Assembly: GCA_029262415.1 (NCBI GenBank)
Contig: JAJCZL010000008.1
Coordinates: forward strand, 1-64,000
Reading direction: 5' to 3'
Source of the DNA: Deltaproteobacteria bacterium
GTDB lineage: Bacteria; Desulfobacterota; Binatia; UBA1149; JAJCZL01
Length of the DNA: 64,000 nucleotides
The notes beneath the pieces were generated by a model, which saw nothing but the letters and a program-made list of their open reading frames with translations, did not search any database and had not been told where the DNA came from. The position numbers were made by a program, and so were the translations under genes. Below are positions 11,830-62,900 of this stretch, piece by piece; the stretch's first letter is position 1; each line of letters begins with the position of its first letter.

Positions 11830-14800
11830 TCAGTGAAAGTCGCGCGCAGGTCCGGTCTGCGGTCGTGCGGTAACGCTGGGCACCCACAAACGCTCGGCAA
11901 CCAAGTGGATCACGTCTTGTTGCACCTGTAGCGTCCCCGATATCCCCAGAAACGACGAGGTTTTTGCGAGCAGCGCGTGCTTGTCGAATACGTTTTTCCA
12001 TAACACGAGATTGAGGAACCCGGTTTCGTCCTCGAGTGTCATAAAGACTACTCCTTTTGCGGTCGCCGGCTGTTGTCGGCCGATGACCACGCCTGCGTAG
12101 TCTACGTGCGTACCATCGGACATTTCTCGTACACGTGCCGCGTCGGGTAAGCCGAGCGCATCGAGTTCAGCGCGCAGCGGCGAGAGCGGATGCCCGCGCG
12201 TGCTGTGTCGGGTCACCTTGTAATCCCATGAGATTGTTTCGAAATCGCTCAGTGCCCCAAAGGCAGGCGTGTCTTCGGCAACGTGCATAGCCAAAGGCAT
12301 CCGCGCTGTGTGTATGTGGCCCGCCGTTTCCCACAGTGCGGAGCGCCGGTTCTCGACGAGCGGCTCGAGTGCCCCGGCTCTGCCGAGTAGCCGGAGGAAA
12401 CTGTTGCCGATTTGTGTTCGCCGTACTAAGTCTTGAATCGATTCGAAGGGCCGCTCACGGCGGCTTTGCTCGATACCGCTCCAATCGGACTCGCGTAGGT
12501 CTTTGACGTAACGTGCGCCGATTCGCACTGCGAAACCCTCGGCGTTGCAGTGCACCGCGGTAGTTTTGCAGTGTGTGGGTTGCCTGCCACGCTCGGGCTC
12601 GAGCGTGCAATCCCATTCGCTGGCATTGATGTCGATCGGTCGCACCTCGATGTCATGGTGTTTGGCGTCTTCGACAATGGTGGCGGGGGAGTAAAAGCCC
12701 ATCGGTTGCGCATTGAGAAGCGAACAGGTGAACTCGGCAGGATAGCGGCACTTGAGCCAAGCGGTGGCGTAGGCGATCAGTGCAAAGCTGGCGGCATGGC
12801 TTTCGGGAAAACCGTATTCGCCAAAGCCGCGGATTTGTTCAAAAACGCGCTCGGCGAACTCGGGCGCGATTCCTTTGGCCTGCATGCGTGAGACCAGGCG
12901 TTCACGGTGTGTCTCGATGCGACCGCTGCGCCGCCACGCCGCCATGTCGCGGCGCAGTTGGTCGGCTTCGCCGGGACTGTAATCGGCGGCGACGATGGCA
13001 AGCCGCATGACTTGTTCTTGGAAAAGCGGAATCCCCAAGGTTTTCTTCAGAACAGGCTTCAGGCACGGGTGCGGATATACGACCGGCTCTTCTCCGTTGC
13101 GGCGCCTCAAGTAGGGGTGAACCATGCCGCCGGTAATCGGCCCCGGTCGCACGATACTGACTTCGATAACCAGGTCATAGAAGTGTTGGGGGCGTAGACG
13201 CGGCAGCATCGCCATCTGCGCGCGGCTTTCGATCTGGAACACGCCGACGGTGTCGGCCCGTTGGATCATTTTGTATGTTGGGCCGTCGCGCGACGGGATC
13301 GTCGCCATCGAGAGTTCGATTCCGCGGTGTTGCTTGAGCAGAGCCAGCGCTTTGTCGATCTGTGTCAGTGCTCCGAGTCCGAGAAGGTCGACTTTGAAAA
13401 GCCCGAGTGCCTCGACGTCGTACTTGTCCCATTGGATGACCGTGCGATCGGCCATCGTCGCGTTTTCGATCGGCACTAAATCGTGCACCGGTTCGTGGCC
13501 GAGTAAGAACCCACCTGGGTGAATCGACAGGTGGCGGGGGAAGTCGAGAATCTCGTTGGCCAGTCTGTATAGGTGTGCGGTTACCGGGGCCTCGGGGTCG
13601 AGGCCGCCTTGTGCAAGTATTTCAGCGGGGACATCACCGTGGTGGCCGAGTAGTTTGGCTACACGGTCGAGCGCGGTGACGGCCAAGCCCAGCGCTTTGC
13701 CGACCTCACGCACGGCAGAGCGCGGCCGGTAGCGTACGACATTGACGACCATTGCGGCGTGGGTGCGCCCGTACTTGTCGTACATGTGTTGAATGACTTC
13801 TTCGCGACGCTCGTGGGCGATGTCCAGATCGATGTCTGGTGGCTCAGAGCGTTCTTTTGAGATGAACCGTTCGAAAAGCAGATCCATGCGCACCGGGTCG
13901 ATCGCGGTTATGCCCAGGCAGTAGCATACAATCGAGTTGGCGGCCGACCCGCGCCCTTGGCACAGAATGCCGCGGCTGCGGCAGAACTTGACGATCTCGT
14001 ACATGGTGAGGAAATAGCCGCAGTAGTCGAGCTCGTCGATCAAGCCCAGTTCCTTTTCGAGTTGACGATCGACGGAGGCAGGAGGAGCCTCGCCGTAGCG
14101 GTCGCGGACACCTTGTACGGCGAGCCGCCGCAGCCACTCCGATGAACTTGTGCCGTCGGGCAAACGCTCGGAGGGGTAGCGGTAACGCAATTCGGAGAGT
14201 GAGAAGCCGCAGCGTGCTGAGATCTCGCACGTACGCGCTACGGCTGCGGGGTCGTCGGGGAACAACAATGAGAATGCGTGGGCACCTTTGAGCGAGTGTT
14301 CGGCGTTTGGGCGCGTGCGGTTGCCTGCCCGTGCGAGCGTCGTGCCATGACGGATGCAGGACAGTACGTCGTGTAACGGTCTGCGTTCCGGTGCGTGATA
14401 CAAAACCTCGGTTGCTGCAACCAAGGGTATGCCGTGTTTGCTCGCGCGGCGCCGCAAGCGCATTTCGCGCACGACCTCATCGGCACTGCGATGTCGAACC
14501 GCCATTGCGTAGAGGCGGTCGTCGAAAGCTTCGTGCAGATCGAGAAGAGGCCGCAGGGGTTCGGCAGGTTCGCAGAGGAGACTGCGTTCTCCGCCCCAAA
14601 GTGCGATCAGCCCCGCCGCATGGTCGCACACTTCGCTCCAGCGCACCGAGGATTCACCTTTGGGCGAACGCAGGCGTCCCTTGCTGATCAGGCGGCACAG
14701 GTTTCGATAGCCACCATGGTTGGCGGCGAGCAGGACGATGGTGGAATCGTCTTCAATCGTGACCTCTGACCCTGCGATCAAGTGCACGCCGAGCTCGCAA

Positions 14801-14979
14801 GCACGCACGTGTGCGCGGACAAGTCCTGGAACGCCGTCGCGGTCGGTTAGTGCGATCGATCCCAAACCGAGTTCGTGGCTTTGCTCGATCAACTCATCTG
14901 GATGGCTGGCTCCCTCTAAGAATGAGTAGTTACTCTTACACCAAAGGGGTACGTGCCCCACCTGGTCTACGCGGCTCAC
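11830..14979 (-). CDS. dnaE2: Error-prone DNA polymerase DnaE2 (ImuC)
   Basis: This 1049-residue C-family polymerase is the catalytic enzyme of SOS mutagenic translesion synthesis with ImuA and ImuB. The N-terminal PHP domain begins [19 protein letters not shown]. The polymerase acidic motif [15 protein letters not shown] lies near residues 395-410, a helix-hairpin-helix region near 800, and an OB-fold ([20 protein letters not shown]) near the C terminus. The GTG at 14979 overlaps the imuB stop as GTGA, whereas the longer open frame to 15093 would run deep into imuB, so I chose the former. Length agrees with DnaE2 (about 1030-1080) rather than replicative DnaE1. It is the last gene of the operon and should be LexA-controlled through the promoter before lexA. 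Confidence 0.95.
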
Positions 14980-16481
14980 TGGACACTCCCGTGCGCGAAC
15001 CAGCGCCTGCGGCGGCGGTCGTAGTACACCCACAAGACATCGCCGCGTTGGGTTTCTAGGAAATGATACTCGCGGTGGATCGGGCGCATCCACCAGCCGC
15101 CCGAGACGATGTAAGGACCGATCGAGCGGGTCACGGAGCCTTGCTCGATGTTATCGAGCATCCAGCCGTCGTTGCTCACGGCCTTGGATTGAACGGGCAA
15201 GACTCGGGGGGCTGTGTGGATGCGGCGAATCAGGCCGGGGGTGCGAACGTTGCGCGGCTCGGCATGCGCCAGCGTTTCGAGTGGTGCCCAAGCATAGGTT
15301 GCTTCGGGTAGGTGTCCTTCGCGTCGGCGCGCATGGACGACCGCAGCATCTCCGAACTCTGCACGTATACGCGCCAAGGCGCGCTCCCCCGCACATAGAT
15401 CACGCCCTGGGTTTCTGTCGAATAACTCCAGCTGCCCAACGCTTGCCCGCATGGCTGCGGCGTGCGCACGGATCTCGATTACGCCGCGTGGCAATGTGAG
15501 AGATTCGAGCCGCAGGCGGATCAAGTTGATGAGGATGCGCCGGTCGAGCGTAGGTTCGGCAGGTCGAAGTTTCTCGGTGTGGATTTCGTGACCGTGCGCG
15601 GCAGGTGCGCGTTCGAGCGTGAACTCGATTATCAACTCCACGAGCGCCTGTGCGCGGTCGGCAAGAGCGGCAAGAACGGTGTCGAGTATCTGCCGTAGGA
15701 TGAACAGCAGGTTGGGGGTGTCACTGAAGGCGTGGTCGAGGATTTGCTCGGCTCCGGAGCGAGGTTCGGGATGCTCGGCTTGCAGCGGCGACCAGCCGTG
15801 GCCGTCGGCGAGCTGGTAGAGGTTGTAGGCTTGTTGACCGAAACGCTTGCGCAAGCCTCCGGCGGGTAGGCTGAGCAAGTCGCCGATGGTGATTACGCCG
15901 AGCTCGGCGAGTGTATCGCGCACAGAAGGGACAAAATCGAGCCGGTCTAACCTTACTTGGCGTGTTGCGGCGTGCTCGACTTGTGGGCTTTCTACAACAC
16001 GGATCGATGAACCTGAACGTGCCAGCGCGTAGGTGCCGAAGCGGCCAAATCCAACAGCGATACCTACGTGAAACCCTGCGGCACGCAGCCGTGTGCGAAT
16101 CGAGCGTGCCCAGCGGTCCAACGAGGGAAAAAGAAGATCCAACCCCGCAGCATCCAGCCAAAACACGCCGGGCATGTCGTGGGACGGTTCCACTGCGGGT
16201 GTGAAATCCCGGAGGATTGCGCAAACGTTGTCGATGCCTTGCCCGATTGCTTCTTCGGTCATGGTCCCGGCGCGTAGGTTGTGTGCGATTGAGAGTGCGG
16301 CTGCGTATCTGAGTCCGGGGAGTACGCGTGTGCGGTGCGCATGTTCATTGGCCCAAAGAACGATTCCTTGGGGAGAGTCTCGATCGATGACTGCGGCTGG
16401 AAACGCCTGCCACTTCGGGTTCTCGATCAGCAGCAGTTGAAGGGGGAAGGCCGGCAGATCAATGCAGGCCAGGCGGTCCAT
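14976..16481 (-). CDS. imuB: ImuB, Y-family polymerase-like mutagenesis factor
   Basis: The 501-residue protein matches ImuB, the non-catalytic Y-family relative that docks ImuA and DnaE2 onto the beta clamp. The pentapeptide QLELF at about residue 371 (GQLELFDRN) is a textbook clamp-binding motif. The palm begins [13 protein letters not shown], keeping an Asp where active Y-family enzymes have the first metal ligand. The second motif reads FWLDAAG, lacking the Glu of the usual S-x-D-E, so polymerase activity is unlikely. A helix-hairpin-helix region follows ([18 protein letters not shown]). It overlaps imuA by 23 bases and dnaE2 by four. Confidence 0.92.
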
Positions 16482-17163
16482 GGTGCACCTCTGTGTGTGT
16501 CCACCCTGGTCCCCGCCTTTTGTCTTTGACTGCCTCGGCCGTGCAGCGAAAACGGTTGCGTCCGATACGCTTGAGATTGGCGTGTAGGTGCAGAGAAACC
16601 AGAGACCCGATTGACGGGGCTTCGCATTGCTTCTCCGTCAGGCAGAGGATGGCAGTGTCGTGCTTTTTTGCGAGCCCGGCCAGGCGTGCCTGCACCGCCA
16701 TCGGCAAGACGGCGTCGGTGCCGAGGTCGATCACGATCAAGCCAAAGGCTCCTGAGCGTATCAATAGTTCGGCTGCACGTGCGGCGCGGGAGGTGTAACG
16801 CGTTCGCCGTTTCGACCGGTCCGGCAACTGCACGTAAGGGACGGGGGCGAGCCGGATCACGGCCAAGGCCGCTAAGTCGATTCCGAACGCCGCTGCGTCG
16901 GGAGGAAAAAAAGAACTCTCCGTCGATGCGATCCACGCGGCCGGTTCGTGGCGTATTTGTGCATCATGCACGATCCTAAAGGTGAGACTCAGGGTCGCAC
17001 CGGCGCCGTAGCCGGAAATCTCGCACAGTCGACCCGCAAGACAGGCTCGTGACCACCCGCACGAGGCTGAAGCCTCAAGTGGCGTTGCCGCCGAGGCGAC
17101 GTGTGCATGTGCTTGGTAGGACTGGGGTGAGTGCCGGCGCGGGAGATTTGTGCCGACGTTCAT
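16459..17163 (-). CDS. imuA: ImuA, RecA/SulA-like mutagenesis factor
   Basis: The 234-residue product sits between lexA and imuB as in canonical imuA-imuB-dnaE2 cassettes. It shows a RecA-like core: SSFFPPDAAAFGIDLAAL (a region conserved in ImuA), GLIVIDLGTD resembling a Walker B strand, and ARLAGLAKKHDTAILCLTEK. The N-terminal region lacks a clear GxxxxGK[ST] Walker A; only SGYGAGATLSLTFR stands there, which is common for ImuA proteins. Its ATG overlaps the lexA stop in ATGA. It is thought to assist ImuB and DnaE2 at stalled forks. Family membership rests on context plus these motifs. Confidence 0.85.
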   Translation of the reverse strand: MNVGTNLPRRHSPQSYQAHAHVASAATPLEASASCGWSRACLAGRLCEISGYGAGATLSLTFRIVHDAQIRHEPAAWIASTESSFFPPDAAAFGIDLAALAVIRLAPVPYVQLPDRSKRRTRYTSRAARAAELLIRSGAFGLIVIDLGTDAVLPMAVQARLAGLAKKHDTAILCLTEKQCEAPSIGSLVSLHLHANLKRIGRNRFRCTAEAVKDKRRGPGWTHTEVHHGPPGLH

Positions 17164-17822
17164 GGCGCACCGGGGTTGCCCAGGGGGGGACCGCTGGTGT
17201 TCAGGTAGCGTCTCACCTCGACGACCTTGCCGAGGATGGTCAGTTTGGCAGGGTCGGGGACGATCGGTTCGAATGCGTCGTTCTCGGCAAGCAGTCGCAC
17301 ACGGCCTTTGTGGATCTGGAATTTTTTGACGGTCGCTTCGTCGCCGACCAATGCCACGACGGTGTCGCCGTTCTCGGCCGCCTGCGTGCGCTGTACGATG
17401 ACGATGTCGCCGTCGAGGATGCCCGCGTTTTTCATGCTCTCGCCTTTGACGCGCAGGGCGAAGAGTTGGTCGCTTTGCCGACCGTCGGTTTTTTGCACCG
17501 CCATGTAGCCCTCGGGGTCTTCCAGCGCGGTGGTCAGCGCACCGGCTTGTACGCGGCCGAGCAGAGGAACCCAGGTGTTGGTGATCGCGGCACCGCCGGG
17601 TCCGGCCGCGAGCAGGTACCCTCTGGATCGACGCTCCAAGGCCTTGGTCAGCAGCCCCTCTTTGACCAGGGCTTCGAGGTGCTGTTGCGCCGACTGCACG
17701 GCGCGGAAGCCGAAGGTTTTTTGCACTTCGCGTACGGTTGGCGTGCAGCCCGCAAGGATTCGCTCGCGCATGAATGTGTAAATTTTCGCCCTGGTTTCGC
17801 CTGCCGGTGTGTACGGTGCCAT
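17160..17822 (-). CDS. lexA: LexA repressor
   Basis: The 220-residue product has an N-terminal winged helix (residues about 5-70, PTVREVQKTFGFRAVQSAQQHL) and a C-terminal S24 autopeptidase. The self-cleavage site is Ala93-Gly94 (VQAGAL), with Ser129 in GESMKNAG and Lys166 in ATVKKF, 37 residues apart as in E. coli LexA. I chose the ATG at 17822, preceded by AGGA. The open frame extends to a TTG at 17873, but that TTG is the -35 hexamer of the promoter and would place the operator inside the coding region. It heads the coupled operon lexA-imuA-imuB-dnaE2 and presumably represses itself and the mutasome until DNA damage triggers RecA-assisted cleavage. Confidence 0.95.
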   Translation of the reverse strand: MAPYTPAGETRAKIYTFMRERILAGCTPTVREVQKTFGFRAVQSAQQHLEALVKEGLLTKALERRSRGYLLAAGPGGAAITNTWVPLLGRVQAGALTTALEDPEGYMAVQKTDGRQSDQLFALRVKGESMKNAGILDGDIVIVQRTQAAENGDTVVALVGDEATVKKFQIHKGRVRLLAENDAFEPIVPDPAKLTILGKVVEVRRYLNTSGPPLGNPGAP

Positions 17823-17850
17823 CGCTGGTGTTCCTATGGATGAACCTAAG

Positions 17851-17873
17851 CAGACATTTGTCTGTTTTGTCAA
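17851..17873 (-). promoter_or_regulatory. lexA operon promoter -35 and palindromic LexA operator
   Basis: On the minus strand TTGACA (17873-17868) is followed after three bases by a perfect palindrome, CAGACA-AA-TGTCTG (17864-17851), lying 28 bases before the lexA ATG. The operator thus fills the -35/-10 spacer, a typical SOS box placement. The -10 (CTTAGG or TTAGGT) is weak. The arms differ from the E. coli, Gram-positive and Geobacter LexA boxes I know. Confidence 0.75.
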
Positions 17874-17994: not shown

Positions 17995-20376
17995 ATGAAA
18001 TCGCGATTTATTTTGGTATTGACGATTTTTGGCTTTGCTGTGCCCGCGGTTGCACCGGCGGGGGTCAATCTGTTGACCGACGGGGTGGAGTTCCGTGCAA
18101 ACGGTTTCACAATCAACTCACAAACCGGGGTACGCGGCGGCGCGGTTTCGCGTTCGGCCGACGGCAGTTTTGTGATTGTGTGGAGCGGCAACGGCTCGAC
18201 CGACGCCGCGGGGGCTTTTCTTCGCCGTTTCAACGCTGCAGGGACCGCACAGGGCGGCGACGTGCGCGTCAACACCTATACGACCTCGACACAGCGCGAC
18301 CCCTTCGTCGGTTCGGCCGATGACGGGAGCTTCGTCATAATCTGGGACAGCTTCGGCCAAGACGGCAGTGACCGTGGAATTTTCGGCCAGCGCTACGACG
18401 CAACCGGCGCGGCCGCGGGAACCGAGTTCCAGATCAACACCTACACGACGGGTGCACAGTTCGAGCCCGCGGTCGGGGTTACAGCTGCCGGCAGTTTTGT
18501 TGCGGTCTGGACCAGTCTGCACGACAGCGGCAGCCGCGGGGTCTTCGGCCGGCGTTACGACTCCTCGGGGGGCGCGCTGGGCACCGAGTTCCTCATCAAC
18601 TCCTACACGACCGGCAACCAGCAGCGCGGCATGATCGATTACGCGGCCGACGGCAGCTTCGTGGTGACGTGGGACAGCGTGCAAGACGGTGATCTCGACG
18701 GTGTGTTCGGCCAACGCTTTGATTCAAGCGGCAATGCCGTCGGTGGCGAATTCCAGGCCAACACTTTCACCACCGGGGCGCAGCGACTTTCCGACGTAGC
18801 GGTAGCCGATGACGGTAGCTTTGTCGTGGCTTGGACCAGTAGTCAGGATGGCGATGCTGAAGGCGTGTTCGGGCAGCGCTTCACCGCGGCCGGTGCAACG
18901 GCGGGCACCGAGTTCCAAATCAACACCTATACGACCGGCAGCCAGCAGCGCCCGGCTGTGGATGCTGACGATGACGGGAGCTTTGTCGTTGTATGGCGCG
19001 GCGACGGCCAGGACGGCGACGGCGAGGGTCTTTTCGCTCAGTGTTTTGATGCAGCCGGTGCGCCATCCAGCGGTGAGTTTCAAGTCAATACCTACACCAC
19101 CGGCCCACAAAACGGTGGCAACGCGGTTGCCGGCGACGGTGTCGGCAACTTTGCGATCACCTGGACCAGTACCGGACAGGATGGGTCGTCCGACGGTACT
19201 TACGCGCAGCAGTTCTGCAACGATGCCGACGCCGACCTGGTTTGCGACCGTGACGACGTGTGTCCGGGCTTCGACGACTCGGCCGACGCCGATTCCGACG
19301 GCTTGCCCGACGGCTGCGACGCTTGTCCTGCTGATCCCGACAACGACGTCGACGGCGATTTGATTTGCGGCGACGTCGACAATTGCCCGAACGATGCGAA
19401 TCCCGGCCAAGAAAACGCCGACGGCGACATTAACGGGGATGCGTGCGATCTGTGTCCAGGTTTCGACGACAGCATCGATGCCGATGGTGACAGCGCACCG
19501 GACGCGTGCGACTTGTGCCCCGGCTTTGACGACAACGTTGACGCCGACAGCGACGGCGTGCCTGACGGTTGCGATCTGTGTCCCGGCTTCGACGATGCGA
19601 TCGACGCTGACACCGATGGTGTACCTGACGGCTGCGACTTGTGTCCCGGCTTTGACGACAACGCCGACGCCGATAGCGACGGTGTGCCCGACGGTTGCGA
19701 TCTGTGTCCCGGCTTCGACGATGGCATCGACACCGATGGAGATACGGTTCCCGACGGCTGCGATGCGTGTGCGGGCTTCGACGACAACGACGATGTCGAT
19801 GCGGACGGGACTCCCGACGGCTGTGACGACTGCTCGGCGCTGGCACCCGACCAAAACCTTACGATCAAGCCTCAGGTCCTGGTCAAAAAGATCAACACCG
19901 ATACCACGGTAGGCAACGACGGACTCAAAGTTCTGGGAGAGTTCATCCTTCCGGTAGGCAGCGACTTCTCGGCGATTCAGCCGCTTGTCACCGCGATTCG
20001 TGTCGTCATGACAGCCGGCGGCGGCGTCGTCAAGCTTGACGAAACGCTTGCGACCACCGGCTTTGGTGGCAGCGGGACCGCAGGCTGGAAACAGAACGGT
20101 AGCGGCAGCAAGTGGACTTTTATCGACAAGACCGCTTCACCTGCCAACGGGATTACGAAGCTGAGCTTCCAAGACAAGAGCAAGAAATCGGCACGCCGTG
20201 TGAAGTTGCAGGTTAAAGGTAAGAACGGCAACTATCCGATCGTCAGCGGCGAAGAGCCGCCGGTCGCGACGGTGATCTTCGGTGCCGGCGGTGCCGGCGA
20301 GTGCACGTCTTCGGTGTTCACCGCCGTGCAGTGCGGGTTTAGCGGAAGCGGAAAGAAGTTGAAGTGCACGCAGTAG
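17995..20376 (+). CDS. Secreted multi-repeat protein: propeller-like repeats, thrombospondin-3-like Ca-binding repeats, C-terminal domain
   Basis: The 793-residue product has a Sec signal peptide (residues 1-22, ending in APAG). Residues about 30-410 hold about seven units of 53 residues built on GSFVVAWTSSQDGD...GVFGQRF...GTEFQINTYTTG, which suggests a beta-propeller. Residues about 415-615 are thrombospondin type 3-like repeats, DADSDGVPDGCDLCPGFDD, with many Asp for Ca2+ and paired Cys. Residues about 620-793 form a beta-rich C-terminal domain ending in a Cys-containing tail (CGFSGSGKKLKCTQ), possibly for sorting or anchoring. ATG 17995 has AGGGG at 17984-17988; the open frame upstream has no signal-like start. 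It is divergent from lexA, 172 bases away. An extracellular adhesive or Ca-dependent structural role is inferred. Confidence 0.82.
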   Translation: MKSRFILVLTIFGFAVPAVAPAGVNLLTDGVEFRANGFTINSQTGVRGGAVSRSADGSFVIVWSGNGSTDAAGAFLRRFNAAGTAQGGDVRVNTYTTSTQRDPFVGSADDGSFVIIWDSFGQDGSDRGIFGQRYDATGAAAGTEFQINTYTTGAQFEPAVGVTAAGSFVAVWTSLHDSGSRGVFGRRYDSSGGALGTEFLINSYTTGNQQRGMIDYAADGSFVVTWDSVQDGDLDGVFGQRFDSSGNAVGGEFQANTFTTGAQRLSDVAVADDGSFVVAWTSSQDGDAEGVFGQRFTAAGATAGTEFQINTYTTGSQQRPAVDADDDGSFVVVWRGDGQDGDGEGLFAQCFDAAGAPSSGEFQVNTYTTGPQNGGNAVAGDGVGNFAITWTSTGQDGSSDGTYAQQFCNDADADLVCDRDDVCPGFDDSADADSDGLPDGCDACPADPDNDVDGDLICGDVDNCPNDANPGQENADGDINGDACDLCPGFDDSIDADGDSAPDACDLCPGFDDNVDADSDGVPDGCDLCPGFDDAIDADTDGVPDGCDLCPGFDDNADADSDGVPDGCDLCPGFDDGIDTDGDTVPDGCDACAGFDDNDDVDADGTPDGCDDCSALAPDQNLTIKPQVLVKKINTDTTVGNDGLKVLGEFILPVGSDFSAIQPLVTAIRVVMTAGGGVVKLDETLATTGFGGSGTAGWKQNGSGSKWTFIDKTASPANGITKLSFQDKSKKSARRVKLQVKGKNGNYPIVSGEEPPVATVIFGAGGAGECTSSVFTAVQCGFSGSGKKLKCTQ

Positions 20377-59972: not shown

Positions 59973-62900
59973 GGCTGCGTCAGATTAACCTGCGGCGGGT
60001 GCCGGGAATCGACCCGCCGTTTTCGCTCAACAACCTGGCTTCGGGTGTCAACGTGATCGTCGGGCCCAACGGTTCGGGCAAGACCTCGATTTGCCACGCC
60101 GTCGGCGCGACACTTTGGCCAGAGCAGACCCGCTACGACCGCGCTGAGATAGAGACTCTGTGGGAAGAGGGCAGCGAGATGCTGCGCGCCGACGTCGAGG
60201 GCAACCGTGTCTCATGGCAGCGGGCGGGTGCCGACGCAGGCCCTCCCGCGTTACCGGACGGCCACCTAGCTCCGTGCTACACGCTGAGCATCCGTGATCT
60301 TCTCGGTGAGCATGCCGATACCGACATCGATATCGCTGGACAGATCCGCATACAGATGTCTGGCGGGTACGATCTACAGTCGGTCCTCGAACAGCGTTTC
60401 CGTGTGGCCCCGCGCGCGGGGATGGTGACTAAGAAAGCGCTTGACGATTCGGAGCGGCGACTATCGGCAGAGCGCAAACGTATGCGCGATCTCGCGCAGG
60501 ACGAAGACCGTCTTACTTCGCTTCGTGCCGAACAGGACCGCGCGCGCAAGGCGCACAGTGACGTGCAGGCTCTCGAACTCGCGATCGAGTTGGCCGACGT
60601 CCGCGCTAGACTCGCCGCGGTACGGGCAGAGTTGGCGTCGATGCCCATTGGCCTGGAGCGGATTACCGGCGAAGAAACAGACCGGGTAGATGAGCTCACG
60701 CGCGATCTCGCGCAGGCCAATCTCGGTGTCCGCAAGTGCGAAGAGCGCATCAAGGCGGCCGAAGCACAAATAAGAGACTCGCGGATGCAGAGCGAGGCTA
60801 TCGACGACGCTTCGGCAGAGAGCTGGCGCGCGCGCGCTAAAGAGCTCGCAGAACTAGAACGCGACCTAAGGCATGCTTCGACAGAGGCGGAGAAGGCAAG
60901 GGCCAAACTAGCGAGCACGCGGGCCGCGCTCGGAGCCGAACCCGGTGGGGACCAGCAGCCGCGCATCGAGCTGTCGGCACTCAGCGACCTGGAGGGCTTT
61001 TTGCAGAGGCGCGCCGATTTACACACGCGGCGGACAACGCTCGAGGAAAGACTGGTGACGCTCGAGAGCGGCGCGGGTGTCGAGGATCCCGGATCCCTTG
61101 CGCGCGGTCTCGACGCACTACGCGAATGGCTCGCGGCGCCGCTTCCGGGTCAACGGGCACGGGTGCCGTTCTGGGTTGTCGTGTTAGCGATGATTTCCGC
61201 GGGTATCGGTTCGATCTTCGCTCTCGGGGCCAGTCCTTGGTGGTCTTTAGTGACGGGTGCCGGTGCCGGGGTGCTGATCCTTGCAGGCATCCTGCGTTTC
61301 GCGACCGATGATGCCAACCGCGAACGCCAGCTACACCTTCGGCGCTGGCGTGAAACCGGCCTGGAAGATCCGCCCGATTGGTCGCCGGATTCGGTTCGTA
61401 AACTTGTCCGCTCGCTGGAGACGCGTCTGGCGCGTTCTCACGTGCAGCGCGAACGCGAGGGCCAGCGACAGGACTTAAAGCAGCAGCTCCGTGCCGTCGA
61501 GGTCATGTGGGAGGGGCTCGAGAAGGAGCGCGAGTCGCTGCGCAACCGACTCGGTGTCGACCTTCCCGAATCCGATCTCGGCGCGCTTGAACTCGCCAGG
61601 CGGATTCAAAGCTACCGAGAAGCGCTGGGCGATCACCAATCATCGTCGGCTGCCAGTGGCGAGTTGGCCTCCAAGCGCGACTCTGCGCTGGAAGGCCTGA
61701 ACCAGTTCCTCCACGTGCAAGGTTACGACTCCGGCGGCGATTCAGCAGGTGTTGTGACCGCACTCGAGAATTTCCAGGGGCGGCGTGCTTCCTTCCGTGC
61801 AGGGCAGGCCGAGCGGATGCGCGCGGAAGCCGAGCGCGCCGAGTACCAGACCAAGGCGACGGTTCTGCAATTACGCGTCACGCGGTTGTATCAAGAGCGC
61901 GGACTCGAGGACGACGATCGCGACGGTCTTCGCCGCTACATCGACATGTGGCCGACGTACAAAGAACGCCGGCTCGACGAAAGAAAACTCAGCGGGCGTG
62001 TACTCGAATTCGAGCACAAACTCGCCGAGAGAAGCGACCTTGCCGGATTAACGGCTGAGGAAGCTGCCAGGCTCAAGGCAGAAGCCGAGTCGACGGCACG
62101 CCGTTACGAAGAAGCCACGAACGAGATCGGGCAGATCCAAGAGCGCGTGCAGCATGCACGGAACGGCAGTCAGTTGGAGTCTGCGGCTGCAGACCATCGG
62201 AGGGCGCAGGCCGACTTGTTCGATGAACGCGAGCACGCGCTTTTGCGGACTGCAGGTAGGTTCCTGATAGCCGACGTCGAGAAGGAGCACGAACTCCATT
62301 CGCGGCCGGTCGTTTTGCGTCGCGCGATGGAGTGGTTCTCGTCGTTTACGCGCAACCGTTACGAGCTTGTTCTCACCGAAGGTGCGGATGCGGTGTTCCG
62401 TGCGCGCGATACATCGACGGCGCGCGAGTTATCCATTTCGGAACTCAGCGATGCTACCAGGATTCAGTTGCTGCTTGCCGTGCGCCTAGCATTTGCGACC
62501 CACGCTGAGCGCGGAGTGCAGATACCGCTGTTTCTCGACGAGGCTCTGAGCACCGCTGATCCCGAGCGTTTTCGCGCCGTGGCCGAGAGCCTGATGGTGC
62601 TTGCCTCCGAGGGGCGCCAAGTTTTCTATCTGACTTCGAACCCCACCGACGCGGCGATTTGGACACAGATCCGCGACTCCGGTTCCAAGAAGAACAACCG
62701 ACCGAATGTAGTTGATTTGGCTACCGCGCGTGGACTGCAGGGTTCGGTACTCGACCCTTCGCAACTCAAGCCGCCGCCGGCCAGGGTGATCCCGGAGCCC
62801 GACGGGGCCAAAGCGGAAGACTACGGCGTGCGTTTGGGCGTGAGTCTTCCCGATCCCTTCATGCCGGTTGACGCCGTACATTTGTTCTATTTGCTGCGCG

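Follow-up and report, generated by a model that had tools for sequence, protein, structure and literature searches.

A perfect inverted repeat, CAGACA-TT-TGTCTG, lies just upstream of a lexA gene in the genome of a deltaproteobacterium (assembly GCA_029262415.1). It reads CAGACATTTGTCTG on the + strand at positions 17851-17864 of the window, i.e., the whole stretch of 64,000 nucleotides of contig JAJCZL010000008.1 that was analysed here. Is this palindrome an operator, and if so, which regulator does it serve, and at which genes? From the sequence data we judge, with a probability of roughly 0.92, that it serves as operator for LexA2, a second LexA whose gene heads a lexA2-imuA-imuB-dnaE2 mutagenesis operon. 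This reading draws on the position of the palindrome, its conservation, its overlap with the promoter, its near-uniqueness in each genome, its recurrence before detached imuA and dnaE2 genes, and the intact cleavage residues of LexA2. Binding by LexA2, repression and RecA-dependent induction are what we infer.

A palindrome in the lexA2 promoter

The features of the locus are as follows.

17868..17873, minus strand: -35 hexamer TTGACA, its first base 9 bases upstream of that of the operator
17851..17864, minus strand: predicted LexA2 operator, CAGACAAATGTCTG on the gene strand (CAGACA-AA-TGTCTG), unique in the genome and conserved upstream of LexA2 orthologues
17843..17848, minus strand: weak and uncertain -10 candidate TAGGTT, matching the consensus at 3 of 6 positions with a spacing of 19
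17160..17822, minus strand: lexA2, 220 aa, LexA DNA-binding domain plus S24 peptidase (TIGR00498, about 151.5-151.9 bits; cut-off 110.95)
16459..17163, minus strand: imuA, whose start and the lexA2 stop overlap; the name is based on position and on the counterpart that follows LexA2 in other loci
14976..16481, minus strand: imuB, Y-family polymerase-like protein (PF00817 over its cut-off, DNA polymerase IV models below theirs)
11830..15093, minus strand: dnaE2/imuC, error-prone C-family polymerase (PRK05672, 1314.5 bits; cut-off 939)

The initial annotation of this DNA had described a perfect 14-bp palindrome between a TTGACA -35 element and the lexA start, and this geometry is borne out; the ATG of lexA2 is at 17822-17820, leaving a gap of 28 bp to the box. 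The palindrome had also been the only one of its kind noticed in the window. That holds for the exact repeat: CAGACA-N2-TGTCTG has a single occurrence in the 3,911,266-base genome (0 in a reversed control). It does not extend to the two looser copies found at up to two mismatches, which bring the window count to 3 with the exact one included, the level expected by chance (2.02 in shuffles). One of them, at 60349 with 1 mismatch, falls within an open ATPase-like frame. No Rfam family matched the window at gathering scores. A single 14-bp palindrome is, on its own, weak evidence.

The relation between box and promoter recurs in other loci. TTGAC starts 8, 9 or 10 bases 5′ of the box in 20 of 65 scored promoters, that of the window among them, and just one other TTGAC was found between -40 and +20 in the same 65. 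In those 20 promoters the spacer between the -35 and -10 elements is filled by the box. For the window LexA2, it is by sequence and conservation only that the operator is placed in the gene's own promoter.

LexA2 and the operon it heads

Both Pfam domains of LexA2 score above their cut-offs, namely PF01726 (29.3 against 23.7) and PF00717 (110.9 against 23.3). Alignment matches its cleavage pair A93-G94 and its S129 and K166 to the E. coli LexA residues named in passages of PMC3091678, and all of these are invariant across 13 aligned LexA2 proteins. With domains over curated cut-offs, an Ala-Gly site and a Ser/Lys dyad, the window LexA2 is a predicted LexA repressor. It is also the second lexA of its genome: two genes exceed the TIGR00498 cut-off, one on contig C58 (LexA1, 200.7 bits) and the copy in the window (LexA2, 151.5 bits).

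The frames of imuA, imuB and dnaE2 follow lexA2 in that order, overlapping and on the same strand, so that the window has both hallmarks of a cassette LexA2, i.e., a second genomic lexA and linked imuA-imuB-dnaE2 genes in order. The imuA product had no NCBIfam match, and its RecA match fell below the Pfam cut-off. The true start of dnaE2 may lie further inside the frame. Adjoining lexA2 is a divergent gene (17998-20373, + strand) for a 792-aa protein rich in acidic repeats that resemble one another (such as DADSDGVPDGCDLCPGFDD), which had no Pfam match at E 0.001.

Conservation of the box upstream of lexA2 genes

LexA2 orthologues were sought in 145 genomes, namely the genome of the window and 144 relatives. 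Full-length orthologues at 58-62% identity are present in 12 relatives, and the box precedes all 12, as an exact CAGAC-N4-GTCTG in 10 and with one mismatch in 2 (L033 and L038). Three further relatives (G004, G006 and G008; E ~1e-36) have a LexA2 preceded by an exact box, AACAGACATTTGTCTGCTATCT; at these loci (L042, L043 and L041, respectively) the linker between the DNA-binding domain and the peptidase is longer by about 30 residues. Thus, the box stands at all 15 LexA2-type matches among the 144 relatives (E ≤ 6.6e-36), 13 times exactly and twice with one mismatch. Weaker matches (E 1.9e-33 upward, at most 46% identity) were taken as other LexA proteins and lie outside the 15. The fuller consensus of the box is TACCAGAC-N4-GTCTGGTA.

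To cover a wider range of bacteria, the species genomes of GTDB were scanned with the alignment of 13 LexA2 proteins, and the best 80 of at least 279 relatives were used. Record names among these best 80 include Acidobacteria, Gemmatimonadota, Latescibacterota, Krumholzibacteriota, Nitrospirae, Myxococcota, Verrucomicrobia, Planctomycetota, Spirochaetes, Zixiibacteriota, Hydrogenedentota, and Thiocapsa and other Chromatiaceae, with more besides; the scanned genomes are mostly metagenome bins, and individual names could be wrong. In the DNA fetched for the same best 80, ImuA is encoded downstream of LexA2 on the same strand in 64, ImuB in 61 and all three genes in 42, counts that are limited by the many contigs that end early. 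In the retrieved DNA, a few LexA2-like genes are unaccompanied by imuA, imuB or dnaE2, namely L145 and L151 (Planctomycetota) and L123 and L129 (Nitrospirae); L145 and L151 also lack a recognisable box.

Loci from the relatives and from the scan were merged, 93 loci being reduced to 80 at 97% identity; L041-L043 are outside the 93. L092, L096 and L100, whose records bear the names Candidatus Binatota or Binatia, duplicate the loci of the relatives G011, G074 and G123, and the window thus very probably belongs to a Binatota genome. The upstream DNA of L032 was too short for shuffling, which left 79 of the 80 promoters. Within these 79 non-redundant promoters, CAGAC-N4-GTCTG occurs exactly in 31, with up to one mismatch in 51 and with up to two in 63, as against 0.01, 0.5 and 6.8 in dinucleotide shuffles of the same promoters. 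Without the window, the relatives close to it and four loci from Clostridia, the corresponding counts are 22, 41 and 52 of 65 promoters. By a weighted site score, 63 of 80 loci have a best site above all of 343 random windows drawn from these loci (60 of 76 when the Clostridia are set aside); the other 17 stay within the background range, and five of them, L139, L145, L146, L151 and L157, resemble random sequence. The weights of this score were set after the first alignments had been inspected, which makes the shuffle test, where no weights are used, the cleaner of the two. The initial annotation had taken the palindrome for an unusual autoregulatory LexA operator; judged by its position and by its conservation before orthologous genes, it very probably is one.

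Boxes at detached cassette genes

That the box is the site of a regulator, and not a peculiarity of lexA2, is best supported by genomes in which the cassette is broken up. In G002, two open frames part dnaE2 from lexA2-imuA-imuB, and a separate TACCAGACGTTTGTCTGGTA lies 54 bp upstream of dnaE2. In the Gemmatimonadota genomes G147 and G150, no imuA, imuB or dnaE2 lies near lexA2 (L106 and L112), and the sole genomic CAGACAWWTGTCTG is found upstream of imuA, beside a TTGACA. A close relative with an equally unlinked lexA2 (L113, genome G151) has no exact CAGACAWWTGTCTG anywhere in its genome. Thiorhodococcus minor (L101) and Thiocystis violacea (L120) have dnaE2 away from imuB, with CATACAATTGTATG about 150 bp upstream of dnaE2; in the lexA2 promoter, the former has an imperfect box of the CATAC type and the latter a box that mixes CAGAC and CATAC. 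The half-site type is thus broadly common to the separate promoters of one genome. Altogether, a box precedes a detached imuA or dnaE2 in five genomes from three lineages, the two Gemmatimonadota and the two Chromatiaceae each being a pair of close relatives.

Sites per genome and alternative regulators

If the box were bound by the main LexA (LexA1), the cassette would be part of the ordinary SOS regulon. LexA1 is indeed present in the genome, and in Pseudomonas aeruginosa imuABC is under a single main LexA, as described in passages of PMC5261740. Against this, no CAGAC-N4-GTCTG is found at the recA and lexA1 promoters of the same genome, and across phyla the box goes with LexA2 genes, also at the promoters of detached cassette genes. 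We therefore consider control by LexA1 very unlikely.

The initial annotation had envisaged a genome-wide SOS regulon for the box. This idea was dropped: lexA2 is a second copy, recA and lexA1 lack the box, and genome-wide counts, which take in uvr and ruv for the arms searched, are at control level. In the genome of the window, CAGAC-N4-GTCTG occurs at 2 places, in the window and on contig C34, compared with 6 in a reversed control; ACAGACAAATGTCTGT at up to three mismatches gives 4 forward and 4 reverse matches, compared with 3 and 5, and two of the eight are the window site on its two strands. It had further been held that the proposal would fail if no other SOS gene carried the motif. The outcome comes close to that, given that the recA and lexA1 promoters have no such box; this yardstick does not apply here, however, because a private operator should occur once per genome. 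The C34 site, CAGACCGATGTCTG (G000:C34:119040; 4041 in L077), has a non-AT core and lies about 100 bp before a frame that is MoxR-like by eye; it may be a chance copy or a second target.

The main lexA promoter (L002 1484-1498, G000:C58) carries another palindrome, TCGCTAGTCTAGCGA, immediately upstream of the start, and its core GCTAGNCTAGC has one genomic occurrence, at lexA1 (57 in the reversed control). It was not seen at recA; it is possibly the LexA1 box. CTGT-N8-ACAG gave no sign of being the box of the main LexA, with 17 places as against 25 in the reversed control.

The near-uniqueness of the box extends to other genomes. We searched 30 genomes for CAGACAWWTGTCTG, picked from the 80 loci largely for having a box-bearing lexA2 promoter. 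Exactly one site was found in 21 of these chosen 30 (reversed control, 0 in all 30): 19 at lexA2 and 2 before imuA, in the two Gemmatimonadota. The other 9 genomes lack CAGACAWWTGTCTG; the boxes at their lexA2 genes are variants that fall outside the pattern. A looser pattern, CRTACANNTGTMYG, gave 13 forward and 17 reverse matches across 14 genomes, compared with 11 and 8 in the reversed control. These matches fall at 20 places, of which 13 are at lexA2 and 2 at dnaE2; the remaining 5 are at neither gene, a number within the control level. Among 13 genomes searched for CAGAC-N4-GTCTG, G002 has the most sites, 14, against 4 in its reversed control; the two of the 14 that were examined, at lexA2 and dnaE2, have an AT-rich core and TACCAGAC flanks.

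Could the box belong to some other dimeric regulator that acts at these promoters? Palindromes of this size fit many repressors, and binding of LexA2 to the box is a prediction; the AC-N4-GT frame, however, is typical of LexA sites, and all 21 exact sites in the 30 chosen genomes stand before lexA2 or imuA, which makes such a regulator an improbable candidate, slightly more so than LexA1. That the palindrome arose by chance is scarcely credible: one 14-bp palindrome of any kind per 64 kb is not rare, and the two-mismatch count in the window is that of chance, but the palindrome is far above chance because it recurs before orthologous genes at frequencies that shuffles do not approach. The box thus looks like a private operator of the mutagenesis cassette.

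Recognition helix and operator

The initial annotation had expected a LexA with an unusual operator to show matching changes in its recognition helix, and an altered helix is what we find. According to passages of PMC3091678, E. coli LexA contacts bases through S39, N41, A42, E44 and E45. By alignment, LexA2 of the window has A41, Q43, S44, Q46 and Q47 at these positions, i.e., all five differ.

Covariation between helix and operator was examined in 65 LexA2 loci, namely the 80 loci minus those with scores under 22.5 and the four Clostridia loci. The third base of the half-site is T at 12 of 16 S41 loci and at 5 of 49 A41 loci, a link with a Fisher p of 2e-6 on raw loci; CTGAC boxes are limited to the two F42 loci among the 65 (L125 and L127). 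On a tree with poor branch support, the S41 label and the box label each change 5 times. The tree alignment retained the recognition-helix columns, against the recommendation to leave them out. A tree-aware test yields 1 independent pair on well-supported branches (5 on all branches), with a sign-test p of 1. Given descent, the covariation is suggestive; as proof of a helix-operator code it was dropped, there being one independent pair on supported branches.

Relation to known LexA systems

The LexA2 box of Pseudomonas putida is GTAC-N4-GTGC, and that of Xanthomonas is TGTACAAATGTACA. Compared by operator and gene order, the P. putida box has AC-N4-GT alone in common with CAGAC-N4-GTCTG, and its LexA2 resembles that of the window in being a second LexA whose gene comes first in the same cassette. 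The Xanthomonas box is identical to the window box in its inner ACAAATGT, whereas the outer bases are TGT instead of CAG. The sequence of the window box, CAGACAAATGTCTG, is therefore neither of the two. Gram-positive LexA half-sites are CGAAC; their GAAC-N4-GTTC box has the same half-site spacing and the same AC-N4-GT core, but the window half-site is CAGAC (AGAC, not GAAC), and it serves one operon instead of a genome-wide regulon. The four Clostridia LexA loci in our sample have AAAC-AAAT-GTTT sites. In the E. coli box, CTGT-N8-ACAG, a dimer likewise occupies a promoter palindrome, with half-sites and spacing that differ from those of the window; a CTG-N10-CAG site is found upstream at two gammaproteobacterial loci with an ordinary LexA. 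The arms had been described as matching none of the CTGT-N8-ACAG, GAAC-N4-GTTC and GGTT/ACC-type boxes. This was right for the half-sites and went too far for the frame, since the AC-N4-GT of the GAAC-N4-GTTC class is kept.

A search of 274 genomes at 1e-35 for gammaproteobacterial LexA2 of the Pseudomonas/Xanthomonas type returned 3 matches, the query's own genome and two with an ordinary LexA. In P. putida, LexA2 controls lexA2-imuA-imuB-imuC as one transcription unit after damage (passages of PMC3901139 and PMC5261740), and Xanthomonas campestris is listed with others as having the imuABC cassette (passage of PMC8072749). Passages of PMC8565304 report 17 LexA motifs and link new motifs to lexA duplications; LexA boxes are described there as changing strongly in evolution, with duplication thought to drive the change. 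We regard the window LexA2 as that of a known cassette with a new operator variant. The box strings had no match in the open-licence papers searched, a body of text mostly without subscription journals; a cassette with its own LexA2 is already known, and a limited search that did not find this operator or its breadth in print is a weak indication of novelty.

Proposed mechanism and significance

The predicted LexA2 dimer would place one DNA-binding domain on each CAGAC half-site, around the AC-N4-GT core. Because the first base of the box lies 9 bases downstream of that of the -35 element and the box fills the spacer between -35 and -10, bound LexA2 would exclude RNA polymerase and so keep its own operon repressed. 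Upon DNA damage, cleavage of LexA2 at A93-G94, by S129 and K166, would be triggered by RecA filaments, and the box would be vacated. The mutasome would then be made along with fresh LexA2, which would close the operon again.

We lean, if not by much, towards a broader proposal, namely that LexA2 and its box form a self-contained unit that travels between phyla with imuABC, stands apart from the main SOS response and governs about one promoter per genome, and that the pair re-tunes itself as A41/CAGAC, S41/CATAC and F42/CTGAC. Movement of the cassette between phyla is suggested by the mixed record names.

What stands out is that a paralogue has kept one box type across many phyla, tied almost wholly to a single error-prone polymerase operon. 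The box would allow damage-induced mutagenesis to be predicted from sequence in uncultured bacteria. It also points to detached cassette genes, and the helix and operator variants offer matched tests of specificity. If the re-tuning is true, these variants would be a natural series for reading the LexA recognition code.
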